A stretch of DNA of 64,000 nucleotides, from contig CAMHDS010000001.1 in assembly GCA_946183925.1 (NCBI GenBank), positions 1 to 64,000 of the forward strand. The letters run 5' to 3'. A program made the position numbers and the translations under genes. The DNA is from an uncultured Fibrobacter sp. GTDB taxonomy: Bacteria; Fibrobacterota; Fibrobacteria; Fibrobacterales; Fibrobacteraceae. The notes below the pieces were generated by a model, which saw only the letters and a program-made list of their open reading frames with translations, made no database searches and had not been told where the DNA came from. This document shows, piece by piece, positions 196-61,023 of the stretch. Numbering within the stretch: the stretch's first letter is position 1; each line of letters begins with the position of its first letter.

Positions 196-286
196 GTGAG
201 CCGTAGGCGACTCGTATTAACGAGTCGTCGAAGGCGAGAGCGAGCGCCAACCGGAGAAATCTAACCTGAATCTAGCGCGAGCGGTC
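196..286 (-). repeat. Two-hairpin repeat unit (reverse orientation)
   Basis: Reverse complement GACCGCTCGCGCTAGA...TTTCTCCGGTTGGCGCTCGCTCTCGC...CGACTCG-TTAATA-CGAGTCG...GGCTCAC aligns with units downstream of nth and of the Ala-rich gene. Confidence 0.75.
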
Positions 287-51586: not shown

Positions 51587-52242
51587 TGGCCAGGGTAAAG
51601 CCGGACAAAATCAAATTTATCGGGGAAAAGCTGGACGAACTTTTCCCGAACCCGCCCATTCCCCTGGATTACAAAAGCCCCTACACGCTGCTGGTGGCGG
51701 TGGTGCTCAGCGCCCAGTGCACCGACGTACGGGTAAACCAGGTGACCAAGGTTCTTTTCAAGGAAGCCTCTACTCCTGCCGCCATGGTCAAGCTGGGCGT
51801 GAAACGCATCGCCGAAATCATCAAGCCCTGCGGATTTTTCAACACCAAGAGCGTGAACATTTTCAACCTGTCCAAGACCCTGGTAGAAAAACACAAGGGT
51901 AAAGTCCCCTGCTCCTTCGAAGAACTGGAAGCCCTGCCTGGCGTAGGCCACAAGACTGCCAGCGTGGTCATGAGCCACGCCTACAAGATTCCCGCATTCC
52001 CGGTGGATACACATATCCACCGTCTGGCAGAGCGATGGGGCCTAAGTGACGGTAGCTCTGTGGAGCAAACCGAAAAAGACCTGAAGAAAATCTTTCCCGA
52101 AAACGAATGGGAAAAGCGCCACCTGCAGATTATCTACTACGGACGCACCTATTGCAAGGCCAGGGGTCACAAGGTCGAAGACTGTCCCATTTGCAGCATG
52201 ATGACCGTTCGCGCTAAAGCCAGGAACAAATTCTCTGGTTAG
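51586..52242 (+). CDS. nth: Endonuclease III; last ~13 codons coincide with a repeat unit
   Basis: VVLSAQCTDVRVN; LEALPGVGHKTASVVMSHAY; FPVDTHIHRLAERWG; ends CKARGHKVEDCPICSMMTVRAKARNKFSG*. Confidence 0.93.
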   Translation: MARVKPDKIKFIGEKLDELFPNPPIPLDYKSPYTLLVAVVLSAQCTDVRVNQVTKVLFKEASTPAAMVKLGVKRIAEIIKPCGFFNTKSVNIFNLSKTLVEKHKGKVPCSFEELEALPGVGHKTASVVMSHAYKIPAFPVDTHIHRLAERWGLSDGSSVEQTEKDLKKIFPENEWEKRHLQIIYYGRTYCKARGHKVEDCPICSMMTVRAKARNKFSG

Positions 52243-52293
52243 CGCTCACTCTCGCAACCACCCCTGTTTAATAACAGGGGCTTTGTTGCTCAC
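52201..52293 (+). repeat. Two-hairpin repeat unit 1 (overlaps nth 3' end)
   Basis: ATGACCGTTCGCGCTAAAGCC...TTCTCTGGTTAGCGCTCACTCTCGCAACCaCCCCTGTTTAATAACAGGGGCTTTGTTGCTCAC. Confidence 0.9.
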
Positions 52294-52295
52294 AT

Positions 52296-52387
52296 ATGAC
52301 CGTTCGCGCTAAAACCAAGAGCAACTTCTCCGGCTAGCGCTCACTCTCGCAACCACGCCCCGTTAATACGAGGCGCTTGTTGCTCAC
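52296..52387 (+). repeat. Two-hairpin repeat unit 2 (tandem, 95-bp period)
   Basis: ATGACCGTTCGCGCTAAAACC...TTCTCCGGCTAGCGCTCACTCTCGCAACCACGCCCCGTTAATACGAGGCGCTTGTTGCTCAC. Confidence 0.9.
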
Positions 52388-59659: not shown

Positions 59660-59747
59660 GTGAGCCACAAGCGACTCGTATTGACGAGGCGTGGTGGCGA
59701 GAGTGAGGCGATGCCGGAGGTACACCCCCGAGATTGAGCCGAACGGT
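59660..59747 (-). repeat. Two-hairpin repeat unit (reverse orientation)
   Basis: GTGAGCCACAAGCGACTCGTATTGACGAGGCGTGGTGGCGAGAGTGAGGCGATGCCGGAGGT...GAACGGT; outer stem GCCAC/GTGGC. Confidence 0.78.
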
Positions 59748-60054: not shown

Positions 60055-60726
60055 ATGAAGATTAAGAATCTGTTGCTGGCAACCATGCTGGCTTCTGCCG
60101 TTGCCTTTGCAGCTGATGCCGCAAAGCCTGCCGCCGCAGCCCCCGCTGCCGCTCCCGCAAAGACCGAAGCCGCCGCTCCCGCTGCTGCTCCTGCACCTGC
60201 TGCTGAAGCCGCTGCTCCCGCAGCTGCCGCTCCTGCTGAGGCCGCACCGGCACCCGCTGCCGAAGCTGCTCCTGCAGCCGCTCCCGCCGAAGCCGCCGCT
60301 CCTGCTACCGCTGCTGCTCCTGCTGATTCTGCTGCCCAACCTGCTACCGAAGCCGCCCCCGCAGCCGAAGCTGCTGCCGCCACGGCTGACTCTGCCGCAG
60401 CTCCCGCTGAAGCTGCCGCTGCTCCGGCCGACTCCGCTGCCGCCGCTCCTGCTGAAGCCGTAGCCACTGCCGACACCACCAAGGCAGACTCCGCCGAAGT
60501 GCTGGAAGCCAAGACCGAAGAAGCTCCGGTTGACAGCGCCGCCCTCGCCCAGTCCGAAGCTGACAAGAAGGCCGCCGAAGAAGCCGCCAAGGCCGAGGCC
60601 GCCGCTCAGCCCTCCGAGGCTACCGCTTCTGCCAAGTCTTCCATCATGGAAAACCCCTGGGAATTCCTGATTGTGTCCGCTGCCTTCGTGGCATCCGTGC
60701 TGGTGATTATCTTCACTGGGGACTGA
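60055..60726 (+). CDS. Exported Ala/Pro/Glu-rich low-complexity protein with C-terminal TM helix
   Basis: Signal MKIKNLLLATMLASAVAFAADA; (AAPAEAAP)n; SIMENPWEFLIVSAAFVASVLVIIFTGD. Confidence 0.75.
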   Translation: MKIKNLLLATMLASAVAFAADAAKPAAAAPAAAPAKTEAAAPAAAPAPAAEAAAPAAAAPAEAAPAPAAEAAPAAAPAEAAAPATAAAPADSAAQPATEAAPAAEAAAATADSAAAPAEAAAAPADSAAAAPAEAVATADTTKADSAEVLEAKTEEAPVDSAALAQSEADKKAAEEAAKAEAAAQPSEATASAKSSIMENPWEFLIVSAAFVASVLVIIFTGD

Positions 60727-60729
60727 TAC

Positions 60730-60822
60730 TGACCGCTCGTTCGTTTTTTGAGTGAAATTCCTCCGGAATCTCACTCGCTCTTGCGACCGCCCCTAGTTAA
60801 TACTAGGGGCTTTGTTGCTCAC
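60730..60822 (+). repeat. Two-hairpin repeat, tandem unit 1
   Basis: TGACCGCTCGTTCG...GAGTGAAATTCC-TCC-GGAATCTCACTC...GCCCCTAG-TTAATA-CTAGGGGCTTTGTTGCTCAC. Confidence 0.88.
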
Positions 60823-60828
60823 AAAAAA

Positions 60829-60919
60829 GACCGCAAAGTCTAAAAGCTATAAGAATAAGTTGCTATAGACTTTGCTCTCGCAACCGCCCCTAGTTAATAC
60901 TAGGGGCTTTGTTGCTCAC
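60829..60919 (+). repeat. Two-hairpin repeat, tandem unit 2
   Basis: GACC-GCAAAGTCTA...TAGACTTTGC-TCTCGCAACC-GCCCCTAG-TTAATA-CTAGGGGC-TTTGTTGCTCAC. Confidence 0.88.
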
Positions 60920-60925
60920 AAAAGC

Positions 60926-61013
60926 GAGCGTTCACGATAAATTTGAGAACAACGTTTCCGGACAGTGCACACTCTCACAAAAACACTGGTTTTCAACAAC
61001 CGGTGTTTTGTAT
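60926..61013 (+). repeat. Two-hairpin repeat, tandem unit 3 (diverged, terminator-like)
   Basis: GAGCGTTCACGATAAATTTGAGAACAACGTTTCCGGACAGTGCACACTCTCAC then CAAAAACACTGGTTttcaacAACCGGTGTTTTG. Confidence 0.7.
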
Positions 61014-61023
61014 TTTGGCCGGC

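Follow-up and report, generated by a model that had tools for sequence, protein, structure and literature searches.

The window analysed here is a stretch of 64,000 nucleotides from an uncultured Fibrobacter sp. (contig CAMHDS010000001.1, positions 1 to 64,000). On its plus strand, a gene for an Ala-rich secreted or membrane protein (60055-60726) ends with a TGA 4 nt ahead of a repeat array that starts at 60731 and lies upstream of a GspE/PilB gene. The array consists of two plus-strand units arranged head to tail, each about 92 bp long plus a short spacer. Unit 1 (60731-60822) comprises GACC, a left hairpin (60749-60777), a right hairpin (60783-60818) and GCTCAC. Unit 2 (60829-60919) has the same order, with the left hairpin GCAAAGTCTA/TAGACTTTGC at 60833-60875 and the right hairpin at 60880-60915. 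The right halves of the two units are identical over 39 nt and the left halves differ. Both units fold far better than their dinucleotide shuffles (z = -6.0 and -6.9 for units 1 and 2, with 0 of 200 shuffles as good), and a shortened right-hairpin motif, CCCTAGTTAATACTAGGG, occurs twice in the window against 0.03 occurrences expected.

An earlier note, made from the sequence alone, had described three two-hairpin units with a period of about 97-99 bp, the first two sharing the same right half. The spacing (97-98 bp) and the shared right half are borne out, and so are the first two units, but the third, taken for a diverged two-hairpin unit, has to be withdrawn. The stretch 60920-61020 folds weakly (z = -1.5), and the terminator-like hairpin found there, AAACACTGGTT/AACCGGTGTTT (60981 to about 61008-61016, plus strand), also stands upstream of GspE in seven relatives that lack the array (G034, G144, G016, G150, G017, G071 and G002). 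Hence, this hairpin belongs to the GspE locus and lies outside the repeat family. Between it and unit 2, a segment without a right hairpin (60924-60979, plus strand) resembles by eye intact left halves such as that of G017; judging from its letters, it is probably a decayed left half at best.

The array had also been regarded as purely local, and this no longer holds, as 30 family copies are dispersed in the window's own genome (G000). Within the window, right-hairpin cores form another tandem pair on the plus strand behind an endonuclease III-like gene (52249-52293 and 52344-52387), a further core lies on the minus strand in the divergent gap between a fumarase-like gene and the Ala-rich gene (59660-59703), and a weaker match is found near the window edge (196-240, minus strand, E 3.6e-7). 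The left half at 52195-52242 supplies the last codons, TVRAKARNKFSG, and the stop of the endonuclease III-like gene, which ends earlier in G002, a relative without a unit there. The Ala-rich gene (window 60055-60726) encodes a hydrophobic tail, MENPWEFLIVSAAFVASVLVIIFTGD, in its 3' part, and this part has matches nearly genus-wide among the matches listed.

A separate matter from the nature of the family is whether the tandem order seen in the window is real. The array could be an assembly join of two repeat-bearing loci in this metagenome-assembled genome, a reading that we consider improbable. Among the matches listed from the 80 genomes searched, G000 is the only genome in which the Ala-rich and GspE genes are neighbours, and the combination of identical right halves with different left halves would suit such a join. 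Against it, tandem arrays of the same period are present in many other genomes, and the upstream neighbour of GspE varies between species anyway. Both a repeat-mediated rearrangement and a mis-join are possible origins of this junction.

Anatomy and pairing of the unit

Across the family, a unit of about 95 bp reads GACC, left hairpin, TCTCGCAACC, a 7-bp arm, TTAATA, the opposite arm and GTTGCTCAC. The core of the right hairpin is flanked by CTCTCGCAACC/GTTGCTCAC, and a GCAAC/GTTGC pairing lies beneath the 7-bp stem. This stem is perfectly paired (7/7) in 189 of 215 distinct units and occurs in 35 different versions; genome-wide, then, there are at least 35 perfectly paired stems, and the constant right half proposed in the earlier note is a feature of the two units of the array. 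The TTAATA loop is retained in 171 of the 189.

Covariation supports this pairing. In an alignment of 34 distinct cores, 96.6% of cells are paired, with 75 two-sided changes; the covariation score reaches 0.468 against 0.135 in shuffled alignments, and all slid registers collapse. A second alignment, which comprises 111 matches found in other genomes, scores 0.544 (shuffled, 0.146); this value leans towards structure because the alignment was fitted to the model. The left arms, despite their differing sequences, also form stems, as had been proposed: 52 distinct arm pairs are Watson-Crick at 72% of positions, compared with 42% in shuffles (maximum 49%). Structure unconserved genome-wide, or left halves unrelated to one another, had been named as findings that would speak against the original reading; we found the opposite, with pairing conserved and the left arms related by pairing.

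Among the 35 stem versions there are 40 pairs that lie one base pair apart, and just 8 of the 80 possible mismatched intermediates were seen, each once. G-U pairs account for 8 of the 16 distinct single defects, and the rarity of G-U does not by itself discriminate between explanations. Template switching yields perfect stems and instantaneous compensatory changes without intermediates (PMC8794818). The scarcity of mismatched intermediates fits such a process, and strong selection would fit too. Template switching has, however, been described for rRNA gene histories and can invert loops (PMC8794818), whereas our loop-inversion scan of the right hairpins never found an inverted loop. The set of stems constitutes a natural experiment on stem change.

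Left and right modules are found in many combinations. Their mutual information is 2.03, compared with 1.70 in shuffles (maximum 1.90), a value inflated by related species; the two modules are not fully independent. Some copies (L069, L009, L049, L067 and L071) have a double-hairpin module (CCACCTAAAGGTGG...AAGTGG) in the middle, precisely between the left and right hairpins, and L069 and L003 represent one orthologous site with and without it. Other units are interrupted or embedded in different ways. Behind an nth-like gene of G017 (L285), the loop of the right hairpin holds an insertion of about 75 nt with hairpins of its own. At L086 and L108, the unit's left arm falls within the sequence that encodes the tail of a Lys/Cys-rich protein, and similar coding-like sequence resumes past the unit.

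This composite plan of left, optional middle and right modules recalls the BOX elements of Streptococcus pneumoniae, which are small, interspersed and modular (boxA-boxB(n)-boxC), are predicted to form stem-loops when transcribed, and sometimes provide the upstream gene with its stop codon, according to the parts of the description consulted (PMC3049150). The likeness is one of modularity; the host phylum and the module plan differ. Moreover, those parts of the BOX description mention neither arms that are hypervariable yet perfectly paired nor an anchoring to stop codons, both of which mark the Fibrobacter units (PMC3049150).

Family extent, mobility and module exchange

Copies per genome were counted with R2, a covariance model built on the right hairpin. 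It detects the 30 copies of G000, where a search with the array as query alone gave about a dozen dispersed ones, and 1-63 copies in 60 of the 61 Fibrobacter genomes tested. A few genomes of sister genera hold 1-4 copies; R2 found none in the other families of the phylum, so that all of its matches in the phylum fall within Fibrobacteraceae. When 84,980 species were scanned with a pattern, at least 115 stretches were returned, those listed being labelled Fibrobacter, Fibrobacteraceae or Fibrobacterales, and the viral contigs, phages and plasmids searched gave zero family matches. Rfam has no gathering-level match in the window and only sub-threshold matches at the array, and such repeats were not found described for Fibrobacter in the open-access literature. 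The family is thus restricted to Fibrobacter/Fibrobacteraceae and apparently undescribed, which adds a genus-wide repeat family to a major gut fibre degrader.

For four sites of G000, the flanks were searched in 16 relatives and the junctions were read. The site C1:96905 is unoccupied, with contiguous flanks, in G016 and G034, and it carries the unit in opposite orientation in G002. At C1:52249, the two units of G000 contrast with their absence in G002 and a left-half remnant in four other relatives. The site C37:9411 is empty in G034, holds one unit in G016 and in G150, and two in G000. The empty orthologous sites and the opposite-orientation copy indicate that the units move. At C37:9411, the flanks and left half of G150 and G016 are near-identical while the right hairpin differs throughout, inner and outer stem together; right hairpins of the G016 type (2 mismatches) are found elsewhere in G016. 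More generally, orthologous genes of different species bear units at the same place with unrelated left or right arms. As read from these aligned junctions, mobility between species and exchange of modules at orthologous sites are established. The swap of one module alone at an orthologous site, along with the many left/right combinations, agrees with the original view of modular elements rather than decaying duplicates, and sites such as this one allow block copying to be tested directly against stepwise compensation. A further GACC lies 3-6 nt past the last units in 64 of 177 cases, against 10 of 177 at a downstream control, which suggests recombination between unit starts. L284 and L008 show the unit in opposite orientations in two species at one orthologous site.

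How the units are mobilised was approached through candidate enzymes and unit ends. The Y1/RAYT transposase (PF01797) is absent from G000 and from the complete copy-bearing genomes G003, G010 and G014, and reverse transcriptases are absent from several copy-rich genomes; neither family tracks copy number, and both were set aside as the mobiliser. GACC...GGTC ends occur in few copies only, with no consistent terminal inverted repeat resolved, no IS matching the unit ends was found, and the pairs of empty and filled sites reveal no single consistent target duplication. The units resemble MITEs in being non-autonomous, short and intergenic and in having empty sites; as a difference from MITEs, no parent IS, consistent terminal inverted repeats or clear target duplication was found for them. 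Integron attC sites, whose ends follow the consensus RYYYAAC/GTTRRRY, were set aside by eye, the unit ends being a misfit.

REP/BIME elements, which are associated with RAYT (TnpAREP), are short palindromic intergenic repeats whose sub-families show complementary stem changes, and roles in mRNA stabilisation and termination have been suggested for them (PMC3733652, PMC8266576). The Fibrobacter repeat is likewise a high-copy intergenic palindrome, with up to 63 copies. In contrast, it has two hairpins instead of one, G-T pairs are rare in it and often seen in GTAG families, no GTAG/CGTC tetranucleotide marks the hairpin base, and RAYT-type genes are absent from several copy-rich complete Fibrobacter genomes. 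Having neither the GTAG/CGTC tag nor a RAYT in those genomes, the family is not a REP.

Position behind stop codons and nature of the array

Gene context, obtained with a simple codon-usage gene caller, places the leading units mainly in convergent gaps (56) and in co-directional gaps in sense (33), with 13 in antisense and 6 in divergent gaps; predicted genes are overlapped by 2 of 143 units. Most units start within -3 to +8 nt of a sense stop; of the 96 leading units that have such a stop at most 400 nt away, 61 begin at -2 to +8 nt and a single one at 9-49 nt. Of these stops, 48 of 59 are TAA, whose share over all genes is 55% (p = 8e-5). The same triplet also stands ahead of 27 of 52 units located far from stop codons (controls, 3-5 of 52), and it precedes certain tandem junctions too, so that target-site preference probably contributes to the TAA enrichment. 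In this sense, the anchoring at stop codons may reflect target-site preference and not a function in the 3' UTR.

Such a target preference is central to the view of the units as purely selfish palindromes of MITE or REP type, whose hairpins serve transposition without gain for the host. If a TAA-containing target is preferred and purifying selection clears genes of insertions, the survivors would sit behind stop codons. The occurrence of TAA ahead of units even far from stops, the empty sites, the opposite-orientation copy, the restriction to the genus and the variable copy number all agree with this account, which we regard as a serious possibility though less probable than the reading favoured below. 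It has to contend with the lack of a linked transposase, given that Y1/RAYT-type and reverse transcriptase genes are missing from several complete copy-rich genomes, and with the strong sense polarity of the units and their bias to genes of high codon bias. Unit-bearing genes indeed have a higher codon bias, a proxy of expression (p = 1.3e-8), and this could also arise if insertion favours well-expressed loci. Among the upstream genes, nine chosen from clusters, and so not a random sample, were identified by Pfam: EF-G, EF-P, malate/lactate dehydrogenase, fructose-bisphosphate aldolase, isopropylmalate/isocitrate dehydrogenase, the acetolactate synthase small subunit (ilvN), ArgJ, rubrerythrin and a class I tRNA synthetase.

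Another idea is that of a cis-regulatory RNA element in which a protein reads the UUAAUA loop and controls a regulon of metabolic and translation genes. An invariant loop and stem base combined with free arm sequences would suit recognition of this kind, as would the orthologous positions shared across species. A range of 0-63 copies across related genomes and several sites that are empty in close relatives would nevertheless be unusual for a regulon, and we consider this explanation very unlikely.

Equally remote is the notion that the units are transcription terminators of their upstream genes, a role for which the earlier note had proposed a check at the array. The right hairpin is GC-rich and followed by a T-richer stretch, TTTGTTGCT, and behind the Ala-rich gene of G017 an intrinsic terminator of the same layout takes the place of the right hairpin. 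The units lack a real U-tract, however, and of the convergent gaps, 62% of those with a unit and 42% of those without have a separate sense terminator (any terminator, 64% and 67%). The presence of a unit thus does not go along with a loss of separate terminators, which places the units within the expected transcript. Nor do they behave as intrinsic terminators, which combine a GC-rich hairpin with a U-tract and would replace other terminators. A general terminator role of the array is accordingly unsupported.

On balance, we lean towards reading the array as a tandem pair of copies of a REP/BOX-like Fibrobacteraceae hairpin repeat, modular, mobile and non-autonomous, that resides in 3' UTRs and is tolerated or used there as a 3'-end structure. 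The units are lodged immediately behind stop codons, TAA above all, in the sense direction and ahead of the terminator; given this location, their transcription as a double-hairpin 3' UTR is expected. Arm sequences are free to change while the pairing, the TTAATA loop and the short constant flanks are kept. We infer that two processes keep the pairing of the arms perfect: hairpins are copied blockwise from other copies, possibly via gene conversion or template switching, and broken stems are selected against. The host may simply tolerate the units or may use them to shield the mRNAs of well-expressed genes at their 3' end. Both the transcription as 3' UTR and the benefit to the mRNA are putative; if this role is true, the units would provide ready mRNA 3'-end elements for Fibrobacter genetics.

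A bolder version, which we put forward as speculative and rather doubtful, is that a dedicated system copies interchangeable hairpin cassettes behind stop codons, replacing one hairpin per event, so that the 3' UTRs of well-expressed genes come to carry shuffled, near-always-perfect stems around an invariant loop. In relatives, different intergenic repeat families flank these genes, namely clusters of CGTCATTCCGGGCTTGACCCGGAATC, and GGGAGGGCTTCCGCCCTCCC together with TTGTATTCGC (L276, L280; L269, L270).
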